DNA of 64,000 nucleotides from Flavobacterium sp. I3-2. Its GTDB lineage: Bacteria > Bacteroidota > Bacteroidia > Flavobacteriales > Flavobacteriaceae. Below the pieces are notes generated by a model. The model saw only the letters and a program-made list of their open reading frames with translations. It was not told where the DNA came from and did not search any database. The stretch's first letter is position 1; the number at the start of each line of letters is the position of its first letter. A program made the translations under genes and the position numbers. Shown one piece after another: positions 3,001 to 32,171 of this stretch. The stretch lies in NCBI RefSeq assembly GCF_013389595.1, contig NZ_CP058306.1:682001-746000 (forward strand), in the 5' to 3' direction.

Positions 3001-4619
3001 TAGGTTGTATTTGCTGTCAAATTATTGATAGTAGTTCCTGAAACCCCAACATTAAGAACAGTACCTGAACCTTGTGTAAATCCAGCAACTCCCCATTCAA
3101 TTTGATAATTATCAGAAGCGTTACCTGCCCATGTCAAAACTACATTGGTTTGAGTAACTGACTGTACACTTGGAACCGCAGGTAATCCGCATGGTCCGAT
3201 ATAAAAGTTATCCAATGCTACATAAGCATCTCCTGACGCCAAAGTATAAATAATTCTTACTTTAACATTTTGTCCTATGTATGAATTCAATGGATATTCA
3301 AAAGTTTGCCAACCTAAATCATTCTGAACTGGAATTGTAGATATATTTGTAAATGTATTTCCATAATCAGTAGATATCAAAACTTCCATTTCACCCGCAC
3401 TAGGAACATCTACATAATAATTTCTAAATCCATAATTAAAAGATAATATATCACCAGCTACAATTGCGCCAATATTCATTGTGGTAGTAGTTGATGTAGC
3501 ACCTTCACCAACTAAATTACGATAATAATAATATGTAAAACCACCCGGCATAATTGTAGCAGAGTTCGTTAACGTCTGATTACTTATCATTGCTGCCGGA
3601 ACAGTTGATGTATTAAAAGGTTCGAACCAAGGTCTAGGAAGCAACAATTCTGTTAAAAAATTATTTGCATTTCCCCAAACAGGAGTATACCCAGTACAAT
3701 TAGATTTCAAATACAAAGTATAATTTGTATTACCAAGTAAACTATTAAATGTTTTTGTATTTACTCCAGCAGCTACTGTACCACTTTCTACCAAACCTGT
3801 CGTACCACTTCCTGCTGCTCCTGATGTTCTCAACTCATATAAATACCCTAAATTCGCAGAAGGGTTAATAGTCCAAGTTGCAACTGCACTATTATGTGTT
3901 TTGGTAATTACAACATTCTGAGGTGTAGCACAAGGCGTCAATGTTCCTGTAAATTGAATTTGCGCCAATGTATTACCTCTAGATTTATAAACAGTTGAAG
4001 ATGGATCCGTAAGATCTATTTCATCATCATCTTGATATCCATAAAGACCTCTATAACTAGACGAAGGAGATCCTACATATGCAGCGAATTCAGGAGAAGT
4101 ACTCCATCCTAATGTATTTTCAACAACTGCAACTAAAATATTATCTGTTCCATTGTAAACAAATGGTGTTGCTAAATTTACTGTAATCCAAGTATCATCT
4201 CCATCAAAAGTTATTAACCCAGAATATACCTGAGTCAAATCTGCAAAAGGAACATAATCTGTTGAAGAACTAAAAGTAGTTTTCGTTGTATGACTTAAAT
4301 AAACGGTCCAGTTATTCCAGTCTTCATAATTACTAACACCGGTTTTAATCTTCCATTTTATTTGGGTAATCGGACCTGCTATACCATCTGCAGCGGCATA
4401 CTCACTTGCCAAAACAATTTGCTGACTATAGCTATAATCATACAAACCATAAATTGGGAAATAGGTAGAAGTAGTAGTTCCACTTGCACCTACATGAATT
4501 TGCGCATTTAATGATATTGATCCAAATAATACCATTACGAAAAGTAACTTATGAAAAAGCCATCGGTTGAGCCCTTTTTCATAACCTCTTCTTAATTTGT
4601 TTAAAGTAATTTCATTCAT
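1..4619 (-). CDS. Giant T9SS-secreted FN3/Ig-repeat surface protein (3' end cut by window edge)
   Basis: The reading frame is open from an ATG at 4619 to the window edge, giving about 1,539 codons. The start is chosen because it precedes a basic stretch and a hydrophobic signal peptide ending in SISLNAQ near residue 45; the N-terminal extension is unusually long. In order I see a beta-rich adhesin-like domain, several fibronectin type III units (motifs such as LTWAGNAS and TTYEYFIRKTC), a GEVED-like segment (NIWVDLNNNGVFEN), and about six Ig-like repeats of the FCG...IWYSS...TGTYYVAQ...NGC type. The last residues before the edge, LKYYPNPVNDVLNINY, are the start of a type A T9SS sorting domain, so only some tens of residues are missing. 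It is probably an exported, surface-attached adhesin or matrix protein. It is the most diverged of the four array members; its ligand is unknown. Confidence 0.85.
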   Translation of the reverse strand, partial: MNEITLNKLRRGYEKGLNRWLFHKLLFVMVLFGSISLNAQIHVGASGTTTSTYFPIYGLYDYSYSQQIVLASEYAAADGIAGPITQIKWKIKTGVSNYEDWNNWTVYLSHTTKTTFSSSTDYVPFADLTQVYSGLITFDGDDTWITVNLATPFVYNGTDNILVAVVENTLGWSTSPEFAAYVGSPSSSYRGLYGYQDDDEIDLTDPSSTVYKSRGNTLAQIQFTGTLTPCATPQNVVITKTHNSAVATWTINPSANLGYLYELRTSGAAGSGTTGLVESGTVAAGVNTKTFNSLLGNTNYTLYLKSNCTGYTPVWGNANNFLTELLLPRPWFEPFNTSTVPAAMISNQTLTNSATIMPGGFTYYYYRNLVGEGATSTTTTMNIGAIVAGDILSFNYGFRNYYVDVPSAGEMEVLISTDYGNTFTNISTIPVQNDLGWQTFEYPLNSYIGQNVKVRIIYTLASGDAYVALDNFYIGPCGLPAVPSVQSVTQTNVVLTWAGNASDNYQIEWGVAGFTQGSGTVLNVGVSGTTINNLTANTTYEYFIRKTCSSGESTWVGRYKFKTTCDPFVGAFSENFSGVATGSSTNLTLPDCWSFYDGGIGYGYVGTTALASPKSFQMYDNGDLINPYILISPETQNLGNGGYRVKFNARSGTSGQTLIFGTMSNPLDASTFTPLQTFALPTTYNVNATPYFVVYLPEGTNDYFAFKHGQQSTYVTIYIDDISYEPNPACPEPVNLSVEKNLSSLTANLRWDGPANIPNNFEVEWGVAPFVQGAGTVVNATNTSTMISSLIADETYSFYVRRICGNESTAWVGPYTFEMGYCTSIPTSNDGTGIGNVTIAGVSMDSPNDVTYEDFTNQVITFNAGEVVPASITFNTGFTYNTNIWVDLNNNGVFENNVELIYQGESLNDNPTTLDVSFTIPDDLGYLTGAYRMRIGTADSGQAIPNSCYSGSWGVTVDLLVNITFPCIQPTNVNFLDIGYEYVVLDWDGQGNSGFELEYGVTGFTQGTGTTILNVTKPYTLENLTPGTTYDFYVRKKCGDLYSDWSTVTTTYVFCDTPEPTGDGAQTLVSDDTLAQLVINGVNLRYYLDPTLTTEVPASTVLQSSGVYYVTQTINCQSDAYLIVDVTVLQRIAMPVVPSGQNFCDSGTIGDIPVTSVSGATVIWYATETSTTPLPLNTPLVTGNYYVVQTDGVTTSHRVMVPVVINTTPPNLVSQTISLCGSYTFGNLSINNQTGTTVKWYVSQTATTPIGNNVPVVTGTYYVTQSFGTCESQRVPFQITQNESLNKPIAGAQNFCGSGTVANLIAQGTAGAQILWYSSATSTNALSPSTQLSNGTYYVAQTMNGCSSEKRAVAVRVISISAPQISAFTVCGGGTISDLYISTPAETSYKWYLSPSSDFELAQTTPLVQGTYYVERVQYGCVSARAMVQVNIGAVPNPPTGVASQSYVEGSTIANLVLNQSNVVWYASINDSQNGVNALPSYTPLVNGTAYYAVIIGSNGCPSYPFAVTVQVYLSNDEFDKEGLKYYPNPVNDVLNINY

Positions 4620-4909
4620 AAATTAATTGTTAGTTAGTAAAAAAAAAACAAAGTTTTAAAATTAGTTAAATATATATTTTTTAAAATTAATCAAAAAAAT
4701 AACAAAAGCAACAGATATATACACAATTTAAAAGTAATTATTTTAAATAAAAAATCACAATAACAAAAAATCACAAAGAATAACCACAATACATCAAAAT
4801 TGACATTTCATATTTTTTTAGCACTTCATAATTTTGTCAAAATAATTAATAAAAAAATCCAGAGAGAAAATTTCCCTCTGGATTAAAACCAATTTTAATT
4901 TAGTAAAAT
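4620..4909. other. Intergenic region with promoter of the preceding gene and terminator of the next
   Basis: These 290 bases are very AT-rich. The side near 4620 must hold the promoter of the gene reading into 1-4619; a weak -7-like box (AAACTTTG on the minus strand, around 4650-4657) is the best candidate. The part from 4788 onward belongs to the 3.3-kb direct repeat and contains the hairpin terminator at 4856-4884. No reading frame or RNA gene is visible. Confidence 0.6.
4856..4884 (-). terminator. Rho-independent terminator of the 4910-11200 gene
   Basis: On the minus strand AATCCAGAG pairs with CTCTGGATT across an 11-base loop and is followed by a run of seven T. It lies 25 bp beyond the stop codon. 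The same hairpin occurs after the next two array genes. Confidence 0.88.
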
Positions 4910-7900
4910 TTATTTTTTGATAATTTTCAAGAACTGTGATTTATTTTCAGTTTTCAATTGAATCATGTAAGTTCCGCTTGCTAAATCTGATAAATCAATT
5001 TTAACTTCTTTATCATCTGTTGATTGAGCTTTAACTCGCTTACCTAATAAATCAAATACTTCTATCTGTAAAATACGATCTGAATATGATATTGTTAACA
5101 AATCCTCTACTGGGTTTGGATAATATTTCAAATCTTCTTTTACGAATTTATCATCTGATAAATAAACATCTACTGTTAACGCAAATGGTAAACTTGGACA
5201 TCCGTTCGTTCCGATTATTACACCGTAGTAAGTTGTTCCGTTTACTAAAGGCATTCCTTGAACTAATGGATTTACTCCATTTCTTGCATTTTGTTCTGAA
5301 ATATACCAAACCACATTTGGTTGATTCATTACGATATCATTTATCGTAGAACCTTGAATAAATGTTTGAGGACTTATTCCAGTTGGCGCATCTGGAACAG
5401 AATTTATGTTTACTGTTACAGCCGTTCTTGCTGATTCACATCCGAATTGTGTACGTGAAACAAAATATGTTCCTGAAGCTAATGCTGTATCAGCATTTAA
5501 TTGTGTCGAACTTGATGGTGAATTAAACCATTTGTAAACAACTCCTGTTGGTGTTGGCAATACCAAATCTGAAACTTTTGCACTTCCACAGAAATTAAAT
5601 GTATCTACATTTGGCCCTGCTACTGAAACTACAAAAACAGAAATTGGAACTCTAGCTGAAAAACATCCGTTTCTTGTTTGAGCCGCATAATATGTTCCTG
5701 TTGCTAAAGCTGCACTTGGCGATAATGGGTTTAATGCTACTGATGAATTATACCAAACTATCGTTGATCCAACTGAACCTTGAGCTACTAAATCTGCTAC
5801 AGTTGCTGAACCACAGAAAGTTTGAGAAACTGCCGTTGGGTTACTTAAAGCATCTGTTTGTGTTATAGTAATCATTACACGTGCCGACTCACATCCTCCT
5901 ACTGTTTGTGAAACATAATATGTTCCTCCTACAACATTTGTCGATGACCCTAGAGGTGTTGTCGAAGTTGATGTTTCATACCAATTTAAAGTAGCTCCTG
6001 ATATTTGACCAATAGATACTTGTCCAAAATTATAGTTTCCACATAACTGTACATTTGCATTACTTGGTGCTGGTGGCACAGTTCCTACTGTAACTTGAAC
6101 GGTAGTTTTATCTGACCAACAAGCTCCATTAAATTGAGCTACATAATATGTTCCTGTTGAAACATTCTGAGTTGAAGCAATTGGCGTAGTTGAAGTCATA
6201 GAGGAGAACCATCCGATTGTTCCGCCTGAAGCTGCATTAGCTGCTAAATCTGAAATCAATGTTGATCCACAATATAACTGAGTTGCTGGTGCAACTGGAG
6301 CTGGTAAAACTGCTTGAACAGTTACTGAAACTGCAACTCGAGATGACTCACATCCTCCAATTGTTTGAGAAACATAATATGTACCTGTTGCTACTGACAA
6401 TGTCATTGGTAAAACTGCAGTTGATGTTGCTGTTTCATACCATTTCAATGTAGCATTTGACGCTTGTCCAAAATTAATTTCGCTTAAAGGACGTGTTCCA
6501 CAGAAGTTTTGTGCTGTTACTGCTGGCGCACTAGGCACAGGTACAACTGAAACCGTCACTGAAGCTCTTGGAGACCAACAATGTCCATTATACTGAGAAA
6601 CATAATAAACTCCTGAGGTTAATTCTGTTGTAGATGTCAATTCTGTTGTAGATGTTTCACTACCAAACCATCCAATGGTATTTCCTGTTAAAGCCGTAAC
6701 TTCTAAATCACTAACTGTAGCGATACCACAGAAGTTCTGATTTGCTGGAGCAACTGGAGCTACATTTACGCCGTTTAGTTCAATTTCTACAGCAACTCGA
6801 GATGAAGAACATCCATTAAGCTCTTGAACTACATAGTAAGTTCCTGTAGCAGCTATTGAAGTAATTTCTGTTGTTGAAGTTTCTGAAGCATACCATTTCA
6901 ATGTTGCTCCAGTAGTTAAGCCTGTTACAATTACATCAGAAACTTCTACTTCATCACAGAATGATTGATCTGCAGCAACTGGTGTATCAACAAAAACATT
7001 TGTGATTGCTACTGTTTGAGTTACTGAACAATCAGCTGCACTAATTACTGTTACTTCATAATCTGTTTCAGCCATAGCTACAGCAGATTTAAAATAAACT
7101 ATAGCAGCATCTGAACCTGCAACATAAGGTACAGTAGCAGCAGCATCGGTATATAAATTAGTAGCTGGGGTCCAAATTGCTGTTGTAAGTGGAGCTTCTT
7201 TAATATTTACATTATCGATGAACCAACCTGCATAGCTAGTTGAACTATCAGAAGTTACTTTAAATCTAATTTTTACATTTGAAAGATCTCCATTTGTTGG
7301 AAAATTAAAACGAGCTGGTTTCCACAAAGCGTTCGTCGGGTCACTAGATGAAGAAGTTATAGCCGCTTTCCAATCAGCATAAGATCTCGTTGAAAAACGT
7401 TGTCCAATTGCATCAGTTGAACCTATAGCTTCAGCTGTTCCAACATAATCTGCTGGCTTAAAAACAACCCAAGTTGTTCCTCCATCTAAACTATATTCAA
7501 CGTATCCATAATCATATGAATAATCTCCCGAACCTTCCAATGCTGCAATATGATCAAAAGATAAATATGGTGTTGCAAAACTAGACAGATCAAGTGAATT
7601 TGTAAGCGTAACATATCCAGAAGCACTAGAAGCATGTGTAATTTGTAAAGATCTTGCTCCAACACTTGCAACTAGGGTCGTGGTATTTGTAGAAACACCT
7701 CCTGTAGCACTTGTAACAAAACCTTGAACTTGAGATGACTCAAACGAATTAAAATAATTAGACGGCCAAACTGTATTATCACCAACTTTTAGCTGCAATA
7801 CTGTTCCTGCACAAACTTGATGTTCTTCTCCTAAATCCAACATTAAAGGAAGTGGGTTTACTTTAACATCAACTATAAGCGCATTAGAACACAAGGATCC

Positions 7901-10900
7901 TGTGCTTTGAGATGCTGTCAATGTATAAACTGTACTTTCTGTAGGATTAAATACCCAACCAGTTGTCGCATTCCCTGTAACTCCTGTTGTTGGAGACCAA
8001 ACAAATGAACTATAATCTGCAGCACCTGCTGTAACTGTTACTGTTGACGTTTGTCCTTCGCAAATTTCAACACTATTTGTAGACAATGTTAAAACTGGAG
8101 CTGGTGTAACAGTAGCAACTACTTCTGTTCGTGGTGAAGAACATATCGCAACCCCATTAAAAAATGTATTTGCTCTACTCGAACTTGTTGTAGTTCCTCC
8201 AGAAGTTGTACCAGAATCATTTGGCACGCCTCCTGTTAATGTTCCTAAAAGCTGAGCAACTGTTCTATTATCTACATATGTATATGTAGTTTTACTAGCT
8301 GGAGATGTTGAATGATAAGCAACAGAACCAGATTCAGAATTATTACCTCCATTATTATTACTCCAATTTACTTGAACCACAATATTACTTGTTCCGTCCC
8401 AAACAAATGGTGTAGTAAACACATATGGATTTACTCCTAAATTCATTGGTTGTGCAGCATTAGAATACACTAAATTTAAACCAGAAATATGTGTTGAAGT
8501 AGCTGTATTTTGAGTAGTAGTTCCTATATAAATAGTAAAACCTAATCTATTAACAGAACTAGCTGTTTTAACATCAAAAGCAACAGAATTTATTGGACCA
8601 GCCATTAAACCCGCATTCAACAACTCCTCAGCAGTGTAAATATATTGATGCTTGTACCCTCCATAATTATAGTAAAGTGGTGACTCTCCAGCAGCTGTTG
8701 AATTTGAAGTTCCATTTCCTACTTTAACAACTGAATTAGGCGTTGCTACACCAGCTTGAACAAAATAGCTAGTCGTTGTATCAACATTTGGAGTAACAAA
8801 ATTTGCACCTGTAAACAATGGCAAACCACCTGTTGAAGAACTATACCAAGAAACAATTGGGTTGTTTAAATAATTAGCAGACAAGTTCACTGTTCCAAAT
8901 CCGCATCTTGAACCTGGAGTAGTTGAAACCAAATCTGGATAATCACAAAGTGTTGTAAATGTCTTAACTTCTGACCAAGCGCCATTCTGACCAGAAAGAC
9001 AGTTTGTTCGCACATAAACTGTATATCCAGTCTCTGGAAGCAATCCAGTCACATTTTTAGTATTAAAATCAGAAGTAACAGTACCCGTCTGAATAGCTCC
9101 AGGTGTACCAGGCTCACCTGTTGTTCTAATCTCATATTCATATCCAACAGTCGGCGCAGGAGTAGAAACATTCCAAGAAATTGTAGCTGAATTTTTAGCT
9201 ACATTTGTAATTGTAACTCCAAAAACATCTGAACATGCTGGTAATTTCTCAATGACAATATCAGCAAGATGGAAGTAATAATCGTTAGTATCATCCACTG
9301 GACCATCGACTGCCTTAAATCCAATTCGAACATTTTGACCGATATATGAGGAAGGTATCAATACTTCTTGTGGAACTAAACTAGTTCCAAATTGCGCAGC
9401 ATTACTGGCGTCAATTGTGTACAACGGAGTCCAAATATTTCCACAAGCATCTGTAGAAATCATCACTTGTATTTTATCATCTGTATTAACCATCCCCCCG
9501 TTACTCGCAACAGTTGTTGAAGTGGCAGCAGTCATAGCAGCCTTGAAAGTTACTCTCGAAGCTTCATTTAAATTAACAGGAGGTGAAATAATCCATTCCT
9601 TTCTTGAAGTAGTATAAAGATTAATTCTAGCGGTTGTAACTCCATTAACTGAACTATTTGTCCATGCTGAAGTTGTTGTTGTAAAAGATCCGTCACCAGC
9701 TCGTTCATCCCAACCAGGTGAAACTGTTGATAAATTTGAACCCGTAAAGCCCGTTAAAGTAATTGCCTCAGGCATGTTTACAACAGTTGTACTCAATGTA
9801 GTTGCGGTTGTCATTTGAGAACCACTTAATGCTACACCATAATTATAACTATATGGTGCCGCTGAACCACAACGTACATATTCATAAACACGCACATAAT
9901 ATGTTTTAGAACAGTTTAATTGTGTTACAGAAACCGACGTCCCTGTTCCGTCATAAATAATTTGCTGTCCAGAACCTGAATAGGCTGTTGCTGCAACTAA
10001 AGCAGCATCATTTCCATCAACTGGATTAACAAAAGTATTAGTATCATTAATTACAACAACTCTACGATTTCCTCCACCATTAATCCATCCTATATTCATA
10101 GAAAAATCTGTAACATTAGAAAAAGTTAATGATGTTGCTGACAAAGGAGCTCCTGCACCAGTAATCTCACAAACAGTAGAATAGGCTACACCTGCCCCAT
10201 TAGCACAAGTTGTTTTTAATCTATAATATTTAGTCGTTCCATTATATGCTGGCGGCGTATAACTTAATGTAATGCCTGCTGTTGCACCTGCAACATCAGT
10301 CCAAGTAGCATTATCTGTTGACTCTTGCCATTTATAAGAAATACCTGATAAACCTGGATTTACAAGACCAACAGAAATTGTTGTAGGAGTTGCACCTGAA
10401 CACAAGTTTTGTCTGGCAACTGAAACTAAACCACCATTTGGAACACCTGCACAAGGAAGTGGAGGAGTAAAAACATAGGTCAATCCATCTACAAAACCAG
10501 TTACCCCATTAAACTTACATATTGAACTCGAAGTAACTCCTGTAATTGATGTATTTGCATTCACCCATGAATCACCTGAACCTAAAATTAGATATTGATA
10601 ATCACTTGTACTATTTTTTATACCAATTTGCGGATAATAATCTGTTGAAACATCATAAGGTGGATTACCATTATATATAAATTTTATTACGCCTGTTGTA
10701 TTATTCATTCTAATTTGGAAACTAAATGATTCTGTTTTTCCAAATCTTCTAAAATTTCTCCATTCAACTACACTTTCATTTCCAACAACCTGAAATCTTA
10801 TATCTGAAATCCCAGTAGCTCCAACATTTAAATCTGCACCGAATGGGGATAATACTTTGTTATCGGCAAAACTAGTACTAATAGCCTTATACTCATATGC

Positions 10901-11200
10901 AGAAAGAGTTCCTGTAGACCCAAAAACCATTTGACCATTTGAAGTTACCCTTACACTTGTATAAGTAACCCCTGCAAATTCAAATGCAGGAATTGTAACT
11001 GCTGCAGAAGTTTTTGAATCTTGTCCTGGATCACCGTTAACAGCTGCTATCGGATCACCTGAAGATGTCTGAAAAACAATTCCTCCTGTTAACGGAACAT
11101 AAGTCCCATTTTCAATTGTAAATTGATAAAGACTAGACTGAGCATTGACTCTTAACATTGAGAGTAACAATACCAAAAATAATAAGTAAATTTTTCTCAT
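4910..11200 (-). CDS. Giant T9SS-secreted Ig-repeat surface protein, array gene A
   Basis: A 2,096-residue protein with a signal peptide (MRKIYLLFLVLLLSMLRVNAQ, cleaved after about residue 21). The N-terminal part (about 1-1026) is unique to this gene: a beta-rich domain (about 25-245), an Ig-like unit (about 255-345), an FN3-like unit with YYVRVYEY, an adhesin/MAM-like domain (about 480-655), an FN3 domain (about 660-750), and a further beta-rich domain. Residues about 1027-2096 are the same as in the next gene. They hold a MAM-like domain, seven Ig-like repeats each with an FCG and an NGC cysteine, an eighth repeat lacking cysteines, and a type A T9SS sorting domain (YYPNPVEDLLTISY to LKIIKK). 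The protein should cross the outer membrane through T9SS and be attached or released at the surface. It has its own promoter and terminator. The adhesin role is inferred from architecture; the ligand is unknown. Confidence 0.9.
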   Translation of the reverse strand: MRKIYLLFLVLLLSMLRVNAQSSLYQFTIENGTYVPLTGGIVFQTSSGDPIAAVNGDPGQDSKTSAAVTIPAFEFAGVTYTSVRVTSNGQMVFGSTGTLSAYEYKAISTSFADNKVLSPFGADLNVGATGISDIRFQVVGNESVVEWRNFRRFGKTESFSFQIRMNNTTGVIKFIYNGNPPYDVSTDYYPQIGIKNSTSDYQYLILGSGDSWVNANTSITGVTSSSICKFNGVTGFVDGLTYVFTPPLPCAGVPNGGLVSVARQNLCSGATPTTISVGLVNPGLSGISYKWQESTDNATWTDVAGATAGITLSYTPPAYNGTTKYYRLKTTCANGAGVAYSTVCEITGAGAPLSATSLTFSNVTDFSMNIGWINGGGNRRVVVINDTNTFVNPVDGNDAALVAATAYSGSGQQIIYDGTGTSVSVTQLNCSKTYYVRVYEYVRCGSAAPYSYNYGVALSGSQMTTATTLSTTVVNMPEAITLTGFTGSNLSTVSPGWDERAGDGSFTTTTSAWTNSSVNGVTTARINLYTTSRKEWIISPPVNLNEASRVTFKAAMTAATSTTVASNGGMVNTDDKIQVMISTDACGNIWTPLYTIDASNAAQFGTSLVPQEVLIPSSYIGQNVRIGFKAVDGPVDDTNDYYFHLADIVIEKLPACSDVFGVTITNVAKNSATISWNVSTPAPTVGYEYEIRTTGEPGTPGAIQTGTVTSDFNTKNVTGLLPETGYTVYVRTNCLSGQNGAWSEVKTFTTLCDYPDLVSTTPGSRCGFGTVNLSANYLNNPIVSWYSSSTGGLPLFTGANFVTPNVDTTTSYFVQAGVATPNSVVKVGNGTSNSTAAGESPLYYNYGGYKHQYIYTAEELLNAGLMAGPINSVAFDVKTASSVNRLGFTIYIGTTTQNTATSTHISGLNLVYSNAAQPMNLGVNPYVFTTPFVWDGTSNIVVQVNWSNNNGGNNSESGSVAYHSTSPASKTTYTYVDNRTVAQLLGTLTGGVPNDSGTTSGGTTTSSSRANTFFNGVAICSSPRTEVVATVTPAPVLTLSTNSVEICEGQTSTVTVTAGAADYSSFVWSPTTGVTGNATTGWVFNPTESTVYTLTASQSTGSLCSNALIVDVKVNPLPLMLDLGEEHQVCAGTVLQLKVGDNTVWPSNYFNSFESSQVQGFVTSATGGVSTNTTTLVASVGARSLQITHASSASGYVTLTNSLDLSSFATPYLSFDHIAALEGSGDYSYDYGYVEYSLDGGTTWVVFKPADYVGTAEAIGSTDAIGQRFSTRSYADWKAAITSSSSDPTNALWKPARFNFPTNGDLSNVKIRFKVTSDSSTSYAGWFIDNVNIKEAPLTTAIWTPATNLYTDAAATVPYVAGSDAAIVYFKSAVAMAETDYEVTVISAADCSVTQTVAITNVFVDTPVAADQSFCDEVEVSDVIVTGLTTGATLKWYASETSTTEITSIAATGTYYVVQELNGCSSSRVAVEIELNGVNVAPVAPANQNFCGIATVSDLEVTALTGNTIGWFGSETSTTELTSTTELTSGVYYVSQYNGHCWSPRASVTVSVVPVPSAPAVTAQNFCGTRPLSEINFGQASNATLKWYETATSTAVLPMTLSVATGTYYVSQTIGGCESSRVAVSVTVQAVLPAPVAPATQLYCGSTLISDLAANAASGGTIGWFSSMTSTTPIASTQNVSTGTYYVAQFNGACWSDKTTVQVTVGTVPPAPSNANVQLCGNYNFGQVSIGQISGATLNWYETSTSTTPLGSSTNVVGGTYYVSQTVGGCESARVMITITQTDALSNPTAVSQTFCGSATVADLVAQGSVGSTIVWYNSSVALNPLSPSAALATGTYYAAQTRNGCFSARVPISVFVVSVAGPNVDTFNFCGSAKVSDLVLPTPTGVVYKWFNSPSSSTQLNADTALASGTYFVSRTQFGCESARTAVTVNINSVPDAPTGISPQTFIQGSTINDIVMNQPNVVWYISEQNARNGVNPLVQGMPLVNGTTYYGVIIGTNGCPSLPFALTVDVYLSDDKFVKEDLKYYPNPVEDLLTISYSDRILQIEVFDLLGKRVKAQSTDDKEVKIDLSDLASGTYMIQLKTENKSQFLKIIKK
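6621..6656 (-). repeat. In-frame 18-bp tandem duplication inside an Ig-like repeat
   Basis: Two adjacent 18-bp units (6621-6638 and 6639-6656) differ at one base and encode TSTTEL twice in the second Ig-like repeat. The same duplication occurs at 13140-13175 in the other copy of the large repeat, but is absent from the third array gene. Slippage here would change length by six residues without a frameshift. Confidence 0.85.
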
Positions 11201-11244
11201 TAAAAAAATAATTTTTTAGGTTAATTAATAATTATAGTAATTAA

Positions 11245-11274
11245 CAAAAATAGATTTTTTTTTTACATATCAAA
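11245..11274 (-). promoter_or_regulatory. Promoter of array gene A
   Basis: On the minus strand TTTG (11271-11274) is followed after 18 bases by TATTTTTG (11245-11252), a full match to the Bacteroidota TAnnTTTG -7 box. It sits about 45 bp upstream of the ATG at 11200. The flanking sequence is closely similar to that upstream of array gene B. Confidence 0.7.
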
Positions 11275-11374
11275 AAAAAATCATTAAAAAACACTTTTCT
11301 TATTAAAATACATCAAAATTGACATTTCATATTTTTTTAGCACTTCATAATTTTGTCAAAATAATTAATAAAAA

Positions 11375-11403
11375 AATCCAGAGAGAAAATTTCCCTCTGG
11401 ATT
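11375..11403 (-). terminator. Rho-independent terminator of the 11429-17143 gene
   Basis: Same hairpin as at 4856-4884 (AATCCAGAG/CTCTGGATT followed by a T run on the minus strand), since it lies inside the large direct repeat. Confidence 0.88.
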
Positions 11404-11428
11404 AAAACCAATTTTAATTTAGTAAAAT

Positions 11429-14400
11429 TTATTTTTTGATAATTTTCAAGAACTGTGATTTATTTTCAGTTTTCAATTGAATCATGTAAGTTCCGCTTGC
11501 TAAATCTGATAAATCAATTTTAACTTCTTTATCATCTGTTGATTGAGCTTTAACTCGCTTACCTAATAAATCAAATACTTCTATCTGTAAAATACGATCT
11601 GAATATGATATTGTTAACAAATCCTCTACTGGGTTTGGATAATATTTCAAATCTTCTTTTACGAATTTATCATCTGATAAATAAACATCTACTGTTAACG
11701 CAAATGGTAAACTTGGACATCCGTTCGTTCCGATTATTACACCGTAGTAAGTTGTTCCGTTTACTAAAGGCATTCCTTGAACTAATGGATTTACTCCATT
11801 TCTTGCATTTTGTTCTGAAATATACCAAACCACATTTGGTTGATTCATTACGATATCATTTATCGTAGAACCTTGAATAAATGTTTGAGGACTTATTCCA
11901 GTTGGCGCATCTGGAACAGAATTTATGTTTACTGTTACAGCCGTTCTTGCTGATTCACATCCGAATTGTGTACGTGAAACAAAATATGTTCCTGAAGCTA
12001 ATGCTGTATCAGCATTTAATTGTGTCGAACTTGATGGTGAATTAAACCATTTGTAAACAACTCCTGTTGGTGTTGGCAATACCAAATCTGAAACTTTTGC
12101 ACTTCCACAGAAATTAAATGTATCTACATTTGGCCCTGCTACTGAAACTACAAAAACAGAAATTGGAACTCTAGCTGAAAAACATCCGTTTCTTGTTTGA
12201 GCCGCATAATATGTTCCTGTTGCTAAAGCTGCACTTGGCGATAATGGGTTTAATGCTACTGATGAATTATACCAAACTATCGTTGATCCAACTGAACCTT
12301 GAGCTACTAAATCTGCTACAGTTGCTGAACCACAGAAAGTTTGAGAAACTGCCGTTGGGTTACTTAAAGCATCTGTTTGTGTTATAGTAATCATTACACG
12401 TGCCGACTCACATCCTCCTACTGTTTGTGAAACATAATATGTTCCTCCTACAACATTTGTCGATGACCCTAGAGGTGTTGTCGAAGTTGATGTTTCATAC
12501 CAATTTAAAGTAGCTCCTGATATTTGACCAATAGATACTTGTCCAAAATTATAGTTTCCACATAACTGTACATTTGCATTACTTGGTGCTGGTGGCACAG
12601 TTCCTACTGTAACTTGAACGGTAGTTTTATCTGACCAACAAGCTCCATTAAATTGAGCTACATAATATGTTCCTGTTGAAACATTCTGAGTTGAAGCAAT
12701 TGGCGTAGTTGAAGTCATAGAGGAGAACCATCCGATTGTTCCGCCTGAAGCTGCATTAGCTGCTAAATCTGAAATCAATGTTGATCCACAATATAACTGA
12801 GTTGCTGGTGCAACTGGAGCTGGTAAAACTGCTTGAACAGTTACTGAAACTGCAACTCGAGATGACTCACATCCTCCAATTGTTTGAGAAACATAATATG
12901 TACCTGTTGCTACTGACAATGTCATTGGTAAAACTGCAGTTGATGTTGCTGTTTCATACCATTTCAATGTAGCATTTGACGCTTGTCCAAAATTAATTTC
13001 GCTTAAAGGACGTGTTCCACAGAAGTTTTGTGCTGTTACTGCTGGCGCACTAGGCACAGGTACAACTGAAACCGTCACTGAAGCTCTTGGAGACCAACAA
13101 TGTCCATTATACTGAGAAACATAATAAACTCCTGAGGTTAATTCTGTTGTAGATGTCAATTCTGTTGTAGATGTTTCACTACCAAACCATCCAATGGTAT
13201 TTCCTGTTAAAGCCGTAACTTCTAAATCACTAACTGTAGCGATACCACAGAAGTTCTGATTTGCTGGAGCAACTGGAGCTACATTTACGCCGTTTAGTTC
13301 AATTTCTACAGCAACTCGAGATGAAGAACATCCATTAAGCTCTTGAACTACATAGTAAGTTCCTGTAGCAGCTATTGAAGTAATTTCTGTTGTTGAAGTT
13401 TCTGAAGCATACCATTTCAATGTTGCTCCAGTAGTTAAGCCTGTTACAATTACATCAGAAACTTCTACTTCATCACAGAATGATTGATCTGCAGCAACTG
13501 GTGTATCAACAAAAACATTTGTGATTGCTACTGTTTGAGTTACTGAACAATCAGCTGCACTAATTACTGTTACTTCATAATCTGTTTCAGCCATAGCTAC
13601 AGCAGATTTAAAATAAACTATAGCAGCATCTGAACCTGCAACATAAGGTACAGTAGCAGCAGCATCGGTATATAAATTAGTAGCTGGGGTCCAAATTGCT
13701 GTTGTAAGTGGAGCTTCTTTAATATTTACATTATCGATGAACCAACCTGCATAGCTAGTTGAACTATCAGAAGTTACTTTAAATCTAATTTTTACATTTG
13801 AAAGATCTCCATTTGTTGGAAAATTAAAACGAGCTGGTTTCCACAAAGCGTTCGTCGGGTCACTAGATGAAGAAGTTATAGCCGCTTTCCAATCAGCATA
13901 AGATCTCGTTGAAAAACGTTGTCCAATTGCATCAGTTGAACCTATAGCTTCAGCTGTTCCAACATAATCTGCTGGCTTAAAAACAACCCAAGTTGTTCCT
14001 CCATCTAAACTATATTCAACGTATCCATAATCATATGAATAATCTCCCGAACCTTCCAATGCTGCAATATGATCAAAAGATAAATATGGTGTTGCAAAAC
14101 TAGACAGATCAAGTGAATTTGTAAGCGTAACATATCCAGAAGCACTAGAAGCATGTGTAATTTGTAAAGATCTTGCTCCAACACTTGCAACTAGGGTCGT
14201 GGTATTTGTAGAAACACCTCCTGTAGCACTTGTAACAAAACCTTGAACTTGAGATGACTCAAACGAATTAAAATAATTAGACGGCCAAACTGTATTATCA
14301 CCAACTTTTAGCTGCAATACTGTTCCTGCACAAACTTGATGTTCTTCTCCTAAATCCAACATTAAAGGAAGTGGGTTTACTTTAACATCAACTATAAGCG

Positions 14401-17143
14401 CATTAGAACACAAGGATCCTGTGCTTTGAGATGCTGTCAATGTATAAACTGTACTTTCTGTAGGATTAAATACCCAACCAGTTGTCGCATTCCCTGTAAC
14501 TCCTGTTGTTGGAGACCAAACAAATGAACTATAATCTGCAGCACCTGCTGTAACTGTTACTGTTGACGTTTGTCCTTCGCAAATTTCAACACTATTTGTA
14601 GACAATGTTAAAACTGGAGCTGGTGTAACAGTAGCAACTACTGCTGTACCTGTAGTATTAACACAAACTGTATTTGCATTGAATATAAACTGAGGTCTAT
14701 TTAAATAACTCTCTAAATTCGATGAAGTGTTTGCACAAACTGTTTCTGCAGAAGTAGAAGAAGTAACATGAGCCTTTACTGTAGCTTTATATGGAGTCTC
14801 TACAGACTTTATAGTTCTACTCATAGTAGCTGACGAAGCTGAATTTCCGTGGCAAAACTCAATTATGATATTTGATTTACCATCCCAAACAAATGGAGTT
14901 GTAAACACAAAAGTATTAACACCAGCAGTTGGTAAATAAGAAGCTGACGTATAAACACTTGTCATTACTGCATTTGTATCAAAAGTTTCTAATGCAGAAC
15001 GTGTTGTTGTACCAACCTTAATCGACAAGTTAATCATTGGTAAAGTACCAATACTTGTAACATCTAAGGCGATTGAATTAATTGCTCCTGGACCAACACC
15101 ATAATTTAATAATTCTCTTGCCGTAATTAAATGCTGTGTATGATTATTGCTCCAAGCACTATAAAACGGATTAGAATAAGTATTTGAAGTTAAGTCACCA
15201 GCACCTGCATTAATTAACGAAGGAGTTGTACTTACATTTCCACCTGTTGCATAATAAGTAGTAGTAGCTGACAATTGAGGTGTCGTAAAATCTTCTGTAA
15301 TTGCTAAAACATTTCCGCTTACTGCATTATCAAACCAAAAAACATGCGATGAATTAAAATCAGCAGATAAATTTACAGTCCCTATACCACATCTGGTTAC
15401 CGGTGGCGCCGAAACTAAATCAGGATAATCACAAAGTGTTGTAAACGTAATTCCTGAAGACCATAAACCAAATTGAGATACACTACAAACCGCTCTTAAA
15501 TAAACTGTATACTGCGAAGATGGCAATAGATTACCAAGGTTATGGAATGATTCACTTGAAGAAACCGCTCCTGTAAATATAGCTCCAGGTGTTCCTGGAT
15601 CTCCAGAGGCTCTGACTTCATATTCATATCCGATTCCTGGTAATAGATTTGGTACATTCCAAGAAAGTTTGGCGGTATTTTTAGTTACATTTGACACCTG
15701 CAAACCTGTAATATCTGGACAAGTTGGTAGTGGTTCAACAACAAAATTATCTATATAAAATTTAAAATCAGTAGATGTACTAGTGCTTTTTGCAAAAAAA
15801 GCGAATTTAACAACTCCTGAATATGCACTTAAATCAATAGTTTCAGGGTTTACTAAATTATAAGGTATATTTGAATCGTTATAAACCTTTAGAATATTTG
15901 TAGTTGACCAAGTTTGCCCATTATCTGTTGAAATCAAAACTGTCACTGATTTATCAGCTCCCATACTAGTAACACTTGAAGAACCTGAATAGGGAATAAC
16001 TGACACATCATACTTAAGCCTAAAATTAGGACCTGAAACTAAGCCTAAATCTATTGAAGGAGAAATCATCCATTCTTTATCATCACCATACAAATTTATA
16101 TATAAAGCTTTCCCATTAGGATTTGAACTTGAACTATTATAATCTCCCGAAGTCCAACTACTAGTAGTTCCTGTTAAAGCATCACCTATATTAGCACCAA
16201 CTCTCTCTTGCCAACATGGTAAACTAGTTGTAGAAATTGACCCCGTGTAAGTACTAAATGTTTCTACAGCAGTTGGCGCAATTTCGTTATCGCATGTTGT
16301 TCTAAAAGCTACTTTAGAACTCCAAAAACTTAAATCTCCTGAGCCACAATTTGATCTTACATAAACATTATAATTAGTTAATTCAGATAAATTAGAAATA
16401 TTTGCAGTCAAAACGCCTGACAAAGTAGTTCCCGAAGCAATCAAACCAGAACCAACAGTTCCAGGATTTTCATCTGTTCTTACTTCATAAATATAGCCAT
16501 CAGAAGGGATACTTGTAGGAGCTGTCCAACTTATAGTAGCAGAGTTTGAATTTACACCCGAAACTAAAATATCAGTTGGTCTAAAACATGTAGGAGTGAC
16601 TCCTTGAGTAACATTTACGTTATCAAAATAAATATAATAATCTCCATCACCATCCGACAAATCTTCTGATACAAATCTCATATACGTATCCCCTGAAGAA
16701 GGAACAAAAGTTGCAGTAACCGTACTACAGGTTGTCGAAGCTGTATGATTTGAACTATTTATTTCATAAAAATCATTCCATGGACCAGTAGTTGCATTAG
16801 CCCATTGCATCTTAATCTTAAAATAAGATGCAGGTGTAGCTGTTGAAGCATAATTAATTACCTTATAAGATAAATTAACAGTAACCAAACCTTGATTTGA
16901 AGTACCTAAAGAAGGTGACCTAAAAATATTATCATAATAATAATCAAACCAATCAAAATAGAAATTAGTTCTAACAGATGCAGTACCTTCACAAGGTGCA
17001 GTTGTTGTTCTTCCCATACTAGCAGAACCAGAGTTTACCCAGTTACCTAAGCCAGTTGGCTCCCATCCATAAGAATAATTTATTTGTGCATTATGCACCC
17101 ATGGGAGCAGAAGCATCAAAAAAAGTAAGTAAATTTTCTTCAT
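11429..17143 (-). CDS. Giant T9SS-secreted Ig-repeat surface protein, array gene B (chimeric)
   Basis: A 1,904-residue protein with signal peptide MKKIYLLFLMLLLPWVHNAQ. Residues about 20-185 form a domain (WVNSGSASM, DDYYIYFDNVNV region) homologous to the start of array gene C. Then come FN3 (about 190-280), an adhesin/MAM-like domain (about 290-470), FN3 (about 475-565), and a beta-rich domain up to about 834. From about 835 to the end it is the same as gene A: MAM-like domain, seven Cys-containing Ig-like repeats, one Cys-less repeat, and the type A sorting domain with YYPNPVEDLL. So its front resembles gene C and its back equals gene A, which points to gene conversion or recombination within the array. 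Expected location is the outer surface via T9SS. Function as an adhesin is inference. Confidence 0.9.
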   Translation of the reverse strand: MKKIYLLFLMLLLPWVHNAQINYSYGWEPTGLGNWVNSGSASMGRTTTAPCEGTASVRTNFYFDWFDYYYDNIFRSPSLGTSNQGLVTVNLSYKVINYASTATPASYFKIKMQWANATTGPWNDFYEINSSNHTASTTCSTVTATFVPSSGDTYMRFVSEDLSDGDGDYYIYFDNVNVTQGVTPTCFRPTDILVSGVNSNSATISWTAPTSIPSDGYIYEVRTDENPGTVGSGLIASGTTLSGVLTANISNLSELTNYNVYVRSNCGSGDLSFWSSKVAFRTTCDNEIAPTAVETFSTYTGSISTTSLPCWQERVGANIGDALTGTTSSWTSGDYNSSSSNPNGKALYINLYGDDKEWMISPSIDLGLVSGPNFRLKYDVSVIPYSGSSSVTSMGADKSVTVLISTDNGQTWSTTNILKVYNDSNIPYNLVNPETIDLSAYSGVVKFAFFAKSTSTSTDFKFYIDNFVVEPLPTCPDITGLQVSNVTKNTAKLSWNVPNLLPGIGYEYEVRASGDPGTPGAIFTGAVSSSESFHNLGNLLPSSQYTVYLRAVCSVSQFGLWSSGITFTTLCDYPDLVSAPPVTRCGIGTVNLSADFNSSHVFWFDNAVSGNVLAITEDFTTPQLSATTTYYATGGNVSTTPSLINAGAGDLTSNTYSNPFYSAWSNNHTQHLITARELLNYGVGPGAINSIALDVTSIGTLPMINLSIKVGTTTRSALETFDTNAVMTSVYTSASYLPTAGVNTFVFTTPFVWDGKSNIIIEFCHGNSASSATMSRTIKSVETPYKATVKAHVTSSTSAETVCANTSSNLESYLNRPQFIFNANTVCVNTTGTAVVATVTPAPVLTLSTNSVEICEGQTSTVTVTAGAADYSSFVWSPTTGVTGNATTGWVFNPTESTVYTLTASQSTGSLCSNALIVDVKVNPLPLMLDLGEEHQVCAGTVLQLKVGDNTVWPSNYFNSFESSQVQGFVTSATGGVSTNTTTLVASVGARSLQITHASSASGYVTLTNSLDLSSFATPYLSFDHIAALEGSGDYSYDYGYVEYSLDGGTTWVVFKPADYVGTAEAIGSTDAIGQRFSTRSYADWKAAITSSSSDPTNALWKPARFNFPTNGDLSNVKIRFKVTSDSSTSYAGWFIDNVNIKEAPLTTAIWTPATNLYTDAAATVPYVAGSDAAIVYFKSAVAMAETDYEVTVISAADCSVTQTVAITNVFVDTPVAADQSFCDEVEVSDVIVTGLTTGATLKWYASETSTTEITSIAATGTYYVVQELNGCSSSRVAVEIELNGVNVAPVAPANQNFCGIATVSDLEVTALTGNTIGWFGSETSTTELTSTTELTSGVYYVSQYNGHCWSPRASVTVSVVPVPSAPAVTAQNFCGTRPLSEINFGQASNATLKWYETATSTAVLPMTLSVATGTYYVSQTIGGCESSRVAVSVTVQAVLPAPVAPATQLYCGSTLISDLAANAASGGTIGWFSSMTSTTPIASTQNVSTGTYYVAQFNGACWSDKTTVQVTVGTVPPAPSNANVQLCGNYNFGQVSIGQISGATLNWYETSTSTTPLGSSTNVVGGTYYVSQTVGGCESARVMITITQTDALSNPTAVSQTFCGSATVADLVAQGSVGSTIVWYNSSVALNPLSPSAALATGTYYAAQTRNGCFSARVPISVFVVSVAGPNVDTFNFCGSAKVSDLVLPTPTGVVYKWFNSPSSSTQLNADTALASGTYFVSRTQFGCESARTAVTVNINSVPDAPTGISPQTFIQGSTINDIVMNQPNVVWYISEQNARNGVNPLVQGMPLVNGTTYYGVIIGTNGCPSLPFALTVDVYLSDDKFVKEDLKYYPNPVEDLLTISYSDRILQIEVFDLLGKRVKAQSTDDKEVKIDLSDLASGTYMIQLKTENKSQFLKIIKK
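13140..13175 (-). repeat. In-frame 18-bp tandem duplication (copy in gene B)
   Basis: Second occurrence of the 18-bp doublet described at 6621-6656, carried by the large direct repeat. Confidence 0.83.
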
Positions 17144-17284: not shown

Positions 17285-17314
17285 AATCCAGAGAGAAAAA
17301 TTCCCCTCTGGATT
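17285..17314 (-). terminator. Rho-independent terminator of the 17338-22776 gene
   Basis: AATCCAGAG/CTCTGGATT stem followed by a T run on the minus strand. It is closely related to, but outside, the exact repeat that carries the other two copies. Confidence 0.87.
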
Positions 17315-17337: not shown

Positions 17338-20300
17338 TTATTTTTTTACAACTTTTATAAATTGTTGTTTTGATACTGTTTTCAATTGGAGCATATAAGT
17401 TCCGCTTGCTAAATCTGATAAATCGATATTAACTTCTTTATCATCTGTTGATTTGACTTTAACTCGCTTACCTAAAATATCAAAAACTTCTATTTGTAAA
17501 ATACGTTCTGAATATGTAACGTTAAAAATATCTTCAACAGGGTTTGGATAATATTTCAATTCATTTTTAACAAATCCTTTATCAGAAAGATAAACATCTA
17601 CTGTTAACACAAATGGTAAACTTGGACAATTGTTTGTTCCGATTATTACACCGTAGTAAGTTGTTCCGTTTACCAATGGCATACCTTGAACCAAAGGGTT
17701 AACACCGTTTGCAGCATCTTCAGCAGATATATACCAAGTTACATTTGATTGATTCATTACAATATCGTTTATTGTTGAACCTTCAATAAATGTTTGTGGC
17801 GTAATTCCTGTTGGAGCATCTGGTATTGAATGAATTGTTACCTCTACTGAAGCTCTAGCAGATTCACATCCGCTTTGAACTCTAGAAACGTAATAAGTTC
17901 CCGTAGCTAAAGCCGTATCGGGAGTTAACTCTGTCGGATTAGAAGGCGAATTATACCATTTATAAGTAGTTCCTGTTGGAGCTGGAATTACTAAATCTGA
18001 GACAAGTCCGCTTCCACAGAAATCAAATGGATTCACTGTTGGAGCTGCACTTGAAGTAATCTGAACTGCAATTCCAATTCTAGCTGACGTACAACCATTC
18101 ATTGCTTGCTCTGCATAATAAGTACCTGTAACTAAAACTGTACTTGGCGCTAATGGATTCAAAGCATTAGCTGCATTATACCAATTAATAGTTGCCCCAG
18201 AAACACCTTGCACGACTAAATCTGCAACAGTTGCACTACTACAAAAAGTCTGAGCAACTGTTGTTGGTAATCCAAGAGCTGCTGTTGAAGTAACATTTAT
18301 CATTACTCTAGCTGACTCACAACCTCCAATTGTTTGCGAAACATAATAGGTACCTGTTATTGCATTTGTTGATAATGGCAGAACAGGCATTGAAGTTTGT
18401 GTCGCATACCAATTTAATGTGGCATTATTTGGTTGTCCTAATGAAATTTGTCCTAAAGTATATGAACCACATAATTGCAAAGGTGCATTATTAGGAGTTA
18501 CAGGAACTGAACCAACAGTCACCTGAATAGTAGTCATTGGTGACCAACATGCTCCATTGTATTGCGCTACATAATAAGTTCCAGTAACCACATTCAGTGT
18601 TGAAGCTAATGGAGTATTGCTAGTTGAAGAATCAAACCATCCAATTGTACCACCAACATCTGCTGTTGCATTAAGGTTAGCTATTGTAGTGATACCACAA
18701 TACAATTGTGTTGCAGGTGCAGCTGGCGCTGATAAAACAGCTTGAACAGTCATCGGTACTGCAACTCTTGAAGATTCACAACCATCAATTGTTTGAGATA
18801 CAAAATAAGTAGTTGTTATAATCTGAGTGGTCAATGGTAACACAGAAGCAGAAGTTGCTGAAGTGTACCAATTTAAGATAGCATTTGATGCTTGACCCAA
18901 ATCAACTTCTGCTAAAGTATGAACTCCACAGAAAATTTGATTAACACTTGTTGGTGCAGCAGGAACAGTACCAACTGTAACCACAACCTCAACTTTAGGA
19001 GACCAACAATTACCATTAAATTGCGCTACATAATAAGTTCCACTAACTAAAGTAGCCGAAGTAGCTAAAGGTGTATTTGAAGTAGCACTATCAAACCAAC
19101 CAATTGTATTTCCAGTTAATGGAGTTGCTACTAAATCTGCAACTGTATAAACACCACAAAAAACTTGGGTTGCGTTTGTTACTGGATCTACATTTACATC
19201 ATTTATATTGATATCTACAGAAACTCTCGAAGAAGAACAACCATTAAGTTCCTGAACCACATAGTAAGTTCCTGAAGTTGTAATAGAAGTAATTTCTGTT
19301 GTTGAGTTTATCGAATCAAACCATTTCAATGTTGCACCGGTAGTTAATCCTGTTACAATTATATCTGAAACTTCTGTTTCATCACAGAAAGTTTGATTTG
19401 CAATTACTGGATCAGATACTGTAGTTATATTGACTGATGTTGTTGCATCTTGTACACAACCTTCTATACTAACCATATTAACAGTATAAACAGTATTTCC
19501 ATTTTGCGAACTCTTAACATAAACTTTCGTTGCATGTCCTCCAGTATATGGTTGAGTAGCCGCTTGATCCATATACAGATTTGTCTGTGGTGACCAAGTC
19601 GCAGTTGCTAAATCTTGAAATACAAACCTAGCATTTAATCTATTTGCTGATAAAGTACCCGTAGTTGCATTCAAGGATTCACCTGCTGTATCTGACCTTG
19701 TGTACAAACTTTTATTATCAGAAGTGACAGTAAATTGCGTTTTAGCATTTGATCCTGTTCCAGCACCATCATTAAAAATTTCTACAAGTAAATTTGAGTC
19801 ACCATCCCAAACAAAAGGAGTTGAAAAATCAATTTGTTGCCAACCAGATGCTGTATGAGTATGTGTAACAGGTCCATAAACTGTTGTAAAACCACCAGTC
19901 AAGAAAGTACTATTAGCAAAATTTGATTGTGCTACAGTTTTAATTTTAATTGTATAATTATTATTAGTTGCTGAAGTTCCTAATGACGAAACATTAAATG
20001 CAATACCTGAAATTGTTCCAGAAGTAATTCCTAAATCATTAAGTTCTTGTTTTGTATATATGAATTGCTTTTTAGCTTCTCCATAATAATTTTCAAAAGC
20101 CGTTTCTTTGTCTGTTGAAAGCGATTCGTTTGTTCCAGTTCCAACAACTACTTGAGATGTATTTACTAAATTAGTATTCAATTCTTGAGCTACATTGGCA
20201 CAAAAATCATAAGTTGCATTTAAAGCAGTAAATACAGGTAATGGATTAACAACCACATTCAACTCTTTTGTAGTTACACATAATGAACCACTAGTTTGTG

Positions 20301-29977: not shown

Positions 29978-29979
29978 AT

Positions 29980-30897
29980 TTAAAAGAATCTTGGTGTAGT
30001 AAAACGCTTGTACTTATTAAATAATTCAAAACGTAAAAAAACCTCATGAGAGCCACTGTTATAATGAGCTAACTTAGTAACATTTGAATCATACGAATAT
30101 CCAACAAAAAACTGTTCTGATATTTGGAAACCTACCAATGCACTTACTGACGAATCAAACTGATATGAAGCACCAACTGTAAAACGTTCACTAAATAAGA
30201 AATTTGCAGAAAGATCAACTTGTAATGGTGCTCCTTGAATTACTTTGGTTAGTAAAGTTGGTTTAAATTTGATTTCTCTTGAAAGATCAAAAACATGACC
30301 GAAAGTTCCATAAAAATGCATGGTACGTTTCATCGTAGCATACAATTGATCATTTCCTCGATCATATTCTAACATATATGGAACTGAAATTCCAAAATAA
30401 GTTTGCTCTGAATATAAATAAAGTCCAGCACCTACATTCGGATTAAATTGATTTTTTAGATTATCTGTTCCTTCTGTTTCATCATAAATAGTTAATTTAT
30501 TGTAATCTACATTTAGAAAACTTCCGGAAACTTTTACACCAAAAGCTAATTTATAATCGCTATCAAAATCAATGGTATAACTTAAATCAACTGCAACTGT
30601 ATTGTCATTCATTGCTCCCAACTTATCACTAATTATAGAAACACCATAACCTAATTTTGAATAAGTAAACGGTGAATGCACGGTTAATGAAGCTGTTTGT
30701 GGAGCTCCTTCCATTCCGACCCATTGCGAACGAAATTGACCATAAATAGTTAAATCTTCTCGAGAACCTGAATATGCAGGATTTATTATCGAAGAATTGT
30801 ACATATATTGACTAAAATTAGCTTCTTGTTGAGCGAAGACAGAAACAGTAGAAATATTCAATATGAACAATACAATTAATTTAAAATCTCTTTTCAT
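29980..30897 (-). CDS. PorP/SprF family type IX secretion outer-membrane protein
   Basis: 305 residues, signal peptide ending FAQQ, then a beta-barrel pattern. The family signature is plain: FSQYMYNSSIINPAYSGSR, followed by GQFRSQWVGMEGAPQTASL, and a C-terminal aromatic residue (RFF) typical of outer-membrane barrels. In Flavobacterium, SprF-like proteins are needed for secretion or attachment of one particular type B CTD protein encoded next door. Here the 418-aa type B protein lies 2 bp upstream and the OmpA/PD40 protein 2 bp downstream, so it is probably the dedicated partner for that cargo. Confidence 0.92.
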   Translation of the reverse strand: MKRDFKLIVLFILNISTVSVFAQQEANFSQYMYNSSIINPAYSGSREDLTIYGQFRSQWVGMEGAPQTASLTVHSPFTYSKLGYGVSIISDKLGAMNDNTVAVDLSYTIDFDSDYKLAFGVKVSGSFLNVDYNKLTIYDETEGTDNLKNQFNPNVGAGLYLYSEQTYFGISVPYMLEYDRGNDQLYATMKRTMHFYGTFGHVFDLSREIKFKPTLLTKVIQGAPLQVDLSANFLFSERFTVGASYQFDSSVSALVGFQISEQFFVGYSYDSNVTKLAHYNSGSHEVFLRFELFNKYKRFTTPRFF

Positions 30898-30899
30898 GT

Positions 30900-32156: not shown

Positions 32157-32171
32157 ACTTTGCTTTTTAGA

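Follow-up and report, generated by a model that had tools for sequence, protein, structure and literature searches.

A tract of 3336 bp was found to be identical in two neighbouring giant genes, B and C, of Flavobacterium sp. I3-2. Both lie in a stretch of 64,000 nucleotides (contig NZ_CP058306.1, positions 682,001 to 746,000), referred to here as the window and used for the coordinates below. The tract covers the rear half of each gene and continues past the stop codon, and the fronts of the two genes differ. The best explanation, which we consider likely, is gene conversion of the rear together with modular replacement of the heads. The locus holds four tandem genes, named A, B, C and D in leftward reading order.

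4788..8123, minus strand: repeat copy 1, the rear half of gene C with its stop codon and terminator
11307..14642, minus strand: repeat copy 2, the rear half of gene B with its stop codon and terminator
17338..22776, minus strand: gene A, 1812 amino acids (aa), a third paralog in tandem that has not been homogenised with B and C (sequence comparison)
11429..17143, minus strand: gene B, 1904 aa, with Ig_7, fn3 and Por_Secre_tail (domain scans)
4910..11200, minus strand: gene C, 2096 aa, with Ig_7, fn3 and Por_Secre_tail (domain scans)
3..4619, minus strand: gene D, the fourth tandem gene, which runs past the window end and has 1596 aa in the genome
14643..17143, minus strand: front of gene B, made up of 833 complete codons plus two bases from codon 834
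8124..11200, minus strand: front of gene C, made up of 1025 complete codons plus two bases from codon 1026 (relative P0125 at 70% over 846 aa)

An earlier sequence-only reading had described the copies as identical in nucleotides, synonymous sites and terminator, with sharp ends, and direct base comparison bore this out. All 3336/3336 bases agreed, with 0 differences, and the flanks compared in register were 18-42% identical per 50 bp on either side. The BLAST version of the tract was 3341 bp at 99.97% and took in 5 more upstream bases and one mismatch. In gene B the front edge falls within codon 834, in gene C within codon 1026. The rear edge lies 122 bp beyond the stop codon, with a 13-pair terminator-like hairpin inside the tract. 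The 1070 identical residues (835-1904 in B, 1027-2096 in C) carry the immunoglobulin-like (Ig) stack and the sorting tail of the type IX secretion system (T9SS), and the fronts of 834 and 1026 residues differ, also as read before. These fronts were 14-56% alike per 60 alignment columns, signal peptide left out. Third codon positions agreed at 1070/1070 between B and C, compared to 57% between A and B over the last 760 residues. The spacing of the copies, given earlier as 6519 bp, was confirmed by the coordinates. The source genome is a single contig of 3,549,933 bp (3.55 Mb) with a listed completeness of 99.94%. Only these two places in it matched the tract at 100%, and the next best match was gene A (73% over about 2.15 kb).

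Large open reading frames (ORFs) were compared within 20 sequence sets, 18 of which held at least two large genes and two of which held one. Rears at least 97% identical in DNA with differing fronts were found in 8/20 sets, which is not a prevalence, as the compared loci were picked for several hits. They came from a minority of the 37 genomes, our own included, that matched gene A strongly among 398 of the same genus. The eight homogenised sets were our own, G022, xlx-214, G174, G262, G277, G107 and G206; G022 and G174 are close relatives and the eight are hence not fully independent. The seven sets beside our own had the same arrangement, and their homogenised tracts were about 2.5-3.5 kb long at 97-99.96% DNA identity. 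G107 had an adjacent homogenised pair similar to B and C. Homogenised loci were dispersed in G022, G174, G262, G277 and xlx-214. Partners were 0.96 Mb apart in G022 and G174 and, along the contig, 1.8 Mb apart in G277 and 2.2 Mb apart in G262, and xlx-214 had homogenised rears at three loci 0.4-1.3 Mb apart. In one further genome the rears of P0067 and P0070 were 97.6% identical over 943 residues at the protein level. No closely similar locus came out of the DNA search of the 398 genomes; apart from our own it returned 2, at 65-71%. Weaker matches only (best E 4.8e-54) came from seven further closed or near-closed genomes, which lie outside the pairwise comparison.

A second pair is present in the I3-2 genome itself (locus L047, 2788-7194 and 7666-15540, at 2.99-3.01 Mb of the genome). 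Its rears are 93% identical over 2606 bp, its fronts differ and tandem repeats, each about 225 bp long, lie inside it. At 7636-8746 of locus L048 a T9SS-type gene likewise contains tandem repeats, about 222 bp long and 96-98% identical.

The fronts and rears of 56 genes were matched separately, the front being all but the last 950 residues and the rear the last 850. Among the 32 homogenised genes the best front match was in another genome for 26/32. Their best rear match was in their own genome for 30/32, a count that is partly by construction as the genes were chosen for homogenised rears. For the 24 other genes the best front match was elsewhere in 21/24 and the best rear match in the own genome in 6/24. 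L124 of G277 and a gene of G174 had fronts 79% and rears 69% identical, and the L124 rear was 97% identical to those of its own paralogs. Similarly, L131 of G107 compared to G206 gave 57-59% for fronts and 73% for rears, with own-genome rears at 100%. Rears of paralogs within a genome were closer than orthologous rears between genomes, which is the mark of concerted evolution. The tendency of fronts to match other genomes and of rears to match their own genome is, as judged from these alignments, concerted evolution.

The fronts contain two modules that stand apart, an N-terminal one (V1) and one directly before the rear (V2). V2 was classed as type alpha in genes B and C and type beta in gene A, based on short patterns and alignments, not profiles.

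16586..17083, minus strand: N-terminal module V1 of gene B, 49% identical to V1 of gene A
14654..15238, minus strand: module V2 of gene B, type alpha, adjoining the rear (alignment; all-beta model, mean predicted local distance difference test (pLDDT) 80.7)
8135..8737, minus strand: module V2 of gene C, type alpha, 33% identical to V2 of gene B
20506..20985, minus strand: module V2 of gene A, type beta (alignment; all-beta model, mean pLDDT 74.4)

Both V2 types precede near-identical rears in G107, G206 and xlx-214. Between G022 and G174 head modules were replaced in 5/9 gene comparisons. The replaced blocks had roughly chance-to-moderate identity (43-57% in the clearest) and the remaining gene was mostly 93-100% identical. 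Synonymous divergence (dS) of the replaced blocks was high or saturated. The four V2 modules of the main homogenised pairs in these two genomes were 45-53% alike.

Relatives of the individual genes were also mosaic. The metagenome protein P0014 was 88% identical to gene B over residues 191-834 and 94% over 600-834. Across the gene B rear its identity was 83% over 835-900, 25% over 901-1140 and 56% over 1141-1904, and its V1 was 48% identical (residues 21-190). By this profile P0014 carries the middle and V2 of gene B with another V1 and another rear. P0125 was 70% identical to gene C over residues 1-845 and then shifted towards an A-like module, and the gene C V2 was closest to proteins of another genome (72%). 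Best front matches were 78% for gene B and 72% for gene C, each from about 7990 scored candidates. The best outside rears for the B/C pair were at 65-70%, the closest being P0006 of Paenimyroides tangerinum (65% over 772 residues). Only gene A had a near-identical relative in the protein searches (P0008, 97.6% over 1803 residues). The cassette layout seen in the sequence-only reading, a constant rear with interchangeable fronts, is supported at the evolutionary scale by P0014, the 8/20 sets and the module replacements.

The rear edges of the tracts were 0-122 bp beyond the stop codon across the sets. The G206 rear edge coincides with contig ends. In both draft contigs of G206, L138 and L139, the contig end (position 1) falls on the stop codon of a gene, the rears of the two genes being nearly identical; an assembly breaking at the repeat would give such ends. 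The front edge was within one common linker in 8/18 pairs. These 8 belong to the PAPVLTLST/PKPAFELST class and were aligned, with the other 10 left out of the alignment. Seven of the 8 edges were inside 20 columns of the linker and the eighth was 9 columns further out. Edges of the other 10 pairs were 679 to 1170 residues from the C-terminus. The non-linker pairs were our own L047, both type-II pairs of G022 and of G174, G262 L119/L120 and three G277 pairs, with the tenth counted by its longer similarity. A site-specific junction was rejected as edges vary from pair to pair. The variable front edges are explained by homology running out rather than by a fixed site.

In the explanation we favour, B and C would be two of a family of giant surface proteins, exported by the T9SS, in which the fronts vary and the rear, made up of an Ig_7 stack, a C-terminal sorting signal and a terminator, is constant. 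Homologous recombination between paralogs would copy the rear from gene to gene (gene conversion), the copied tract starting where front homology fails and stopping just beyond the stop codon. Rears would become identical within a genome and fronts would retain separate histories. Head modules, chiefly V2 and V1, would be replaced as units through recombination in better conserved flanks. One stalk and export tail would thereby come to carry a variety of heads. What the sequences show is the identical tract, the discordance of fronts and rears across genomes and the module replacement between close species; we infer that the transfer is non-reciprocal conversion, that the proteins serve in adhesion and that diversity of heads is selected.

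A number of observations weigh against this explanation. The best rear match was in another genome for 2/32 homogenised genes and the best front match was in the own genome for 6/32. No module was replaced in 4/9 of the G022 and G174 comparisons. The front edge was outside the common linker in 10/18 pairs, so there is no fixed site, and the tract of G277 L121/L122 includes V2 too. P0014 switches about 25-60 residues inside the rear, off the B/C edge. Comparable genes had no tract of 800 bp at 85% identity or more in 10/20 sets, four of which (L027, L029, L034 and L036) are represented by one locus only.

Programmed surface variation, in which recombination of rears and head modules is frequent enough to alter the displayed head within a population, was judged unlikely. 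The constant rears, the hypervariable V2 and V1, the replacement between close species and the separate promoter-like and terminator-like sites of each gene all fit it. Competence-type genes dprA and comEC are present, but they are common in other genomes too, the same searches being positive in 11 and 10 of 14 control genomes. What speaks against this reading is that the window contains no inverted repeats of at least 60 bp, and no recombinase was found in a Pfam scan of 20 neighbouring window proteins (8 other ORFs of at least 150 aa were unscanned). A single crossover between the B and C rears had been proposed to leave a chimeric gene. As the rears are identical, this crossover restores an unchanged gene B, with no new head, and gene C is lost on the 6519-bp unit. 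New chimeras would need exchange with a different rear or within the fronts. Nor is a tandem array required, as homogenised rears are also 0.4-2.2 Mb apart along the contig.

A recent tandem duplication, with one copy then given a foreign front and no continuing process, had been named as the plain alternative. We think it improbable and weaker than conversion. B and C are adjacent, in the same orientation and 100% identical in their rears, and G107 has a similar adjacent pair. However, relatives of the B front (78%) and the C front (70-72%) are joined to other rears elsewhere, which suggests that both fronts are probably older than the shared rear, and homogenised rears are at dispersed loci in five sequence sets. 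Duplication with front replacement would also involve recombination of this type at this edge, and for a single pair it is hard to tell from conversion.

It is very unlikely that the identity is an assembly artefact, arising from duplication of one rear or from polishing. Polishing of a repeat could yield complete identity, but the genome is closed in a single contig, the two copies differ in their flanks on both sides, and other assemblies have the same pattern plus some mismatches, unlike a collapse. Least probable is a mobile cassette that inserts the rear into fronts; its fairly constant edges (the linker in front, just beyond the stop behind) would suit it, but even among the 8 aligned pairs they range over about 28 alignment columns and 10 pairs have them at other places, the rears are homologous to those replaced and no transposase or integrase was found among the proteins scanned.

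Domain scans found Ig_7, fn3 and a type A sorting tail in genes A, B and C, and Ig_7, fn3 and GEVED in the portion of gene D within the window. Sorting-tail scores (Por_Secre_tail / TIGR04183) were 54.8 bits for gene B and 52.8 bits for gene C, compared to a cut-off of 23. The T9SS translocon is represented in the genome by SprA_N, matched twice within one 2430-codon frame. The products of genes B and C are predicted T9SS type A sorted surface proteins.

11432..11641, minus strand: T9SS type A sorting domain of gene B (TIGR04183, E 6.7e-15)
4913..5122, minus strand: T9SS type A sorting domain of gene C (TIGR04183, E 2.9e-14)
13712..14203, minus strand: central module within the gene B rear, a weak reelin/MAM-like match (under the Pfam cut-off when scanned alone)
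11375..11403, minus strand: terminator-like hairpin 3' of gene B, within the repeat (13 pairs)
4856..4884, minus strand: terminator-like hairpin 3' of gene C, within the repeat (13 pairs)
17285..17314, minus strand: terminator-like hairpin 3' of gene A, similar but not identical to the B and C hairpins
11245..11273, minus strand: promoter-like TTG-N18-TATTTTTG upstream of gene C, outside the repeat (motif search)

A TATTTTTG box is also present upstream of gene B, likewise outside the repeat. We take TTG-N18-TATTTTTG to be a Bacteroidetes promoter motif. A scan for sigma-70-type promoters was uninformative (55 found, 52.8 expected).

The predicted V2 models were all-beta with modest confidence (pLDDT 81 for gene B alpha, 74 for gene A beta). 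Foldseek found nothing at E <=0.001 for either model, and the weak matches included lectin and phage structures. The alpha V2 sequence had 0 matches to solved structures, and Pfam gave none above cut-off for six excised pieces. A head-on-stalk adhesin would be the natural reading of these proteins.

Other T9SS-related genes are present in the window. An operon-like run at 28055-35564 encodes proteins of the OmpA/PD40 and PorP/SprF kinds and a T9SS protein of the CHU_C kind (type B), beside a 1130-aa protein with no Pfam match. The run resembles the PorE-PorP-type B sets described in PMC9143113. Tandem reprolysin-like metalloproteases with T9SS tails are encoded at 43912-46218 and 46446-48755 and share 79% DNA identity over 2080 bp.

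Similar patterns have been described in other bacteria. In Helicobacter pylori the 3' segment of homA/homB clusters by strain via gene conversion and upstream segments vary, and 3' concerted evolution is reported for babA/babB (PMC2795765). Like B and C, these are paralogous surface proteins with 3' concerted evolution and variable upstream parts. They are outer-membrane proteins and not T9SS substrates, and the likeness drawn here is one of pattern. Unlike them, the B/C family has several genes per genome, dispersed and tandem, with replaceable head modules. The Porphyromonas gingivalis genes rgpA, kgp and hagA share repeats that are identical both inside one gene and from gene to gene, and their module variants are unlinked to the variants of the catalytic front (PMC5266723). 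The gingipains and HagA are, like B and C, T9SS substrates with shared identical repeats and mixed modules. Their shared part consists of cleaved adhesin domains behind a protease, whereas that of B and C is the Ig_7 stack and sorting tail, with fronts of predicted beta-sandwich modules. The Vomp genes of Bartonella quintana are tandem adhesin genes, as B and C may be, and members are lost during infection. Unlike B and C, they encode trimeric autotransporters, and their conserved part is reported to be at the 5' region (PMC10936683). The rear also matched the Aureispira grappling-hook protein GhpA (PDB 9flp and others; E 1.1e-18, ten stretches above threshold). This match is limited to the repetitive Ig-like part, its HMMER scores are strongly biased by composition, and it gives no sign of hooks in B or C. 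A literature search found no description of the constant-rear, swapped-head pattern in Flavobacteriaceae. By analogy, the B/C case appears to be the same kind of process as in H. pylori and P. gingivalis, in another protein family.

It is possible, and we suggest it only tentatively, that this clade of Flavobacteriaceae maintains an active combinatorial head repertoire of T9SS adhesins. Gene conversion would preserve a common stalk and tail that serve as a platform of homology, and recombination in the conserved flanks would swap V1 and V2 among paralogs and from incoming DNA, at a rate high enough for surfaces to diversify within populations. The favoured explanation, if true, would explain why draft assemblies can break at such genes, as in G206, and would mean that their front-rear pairing cannot be deduced from short reads. 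It would also give a testable rule for the renewal of surface adhesins in gliding-type bacteria, in which the stalk and export tail are kept uniform via conversion and the heads are exchanged modularly.

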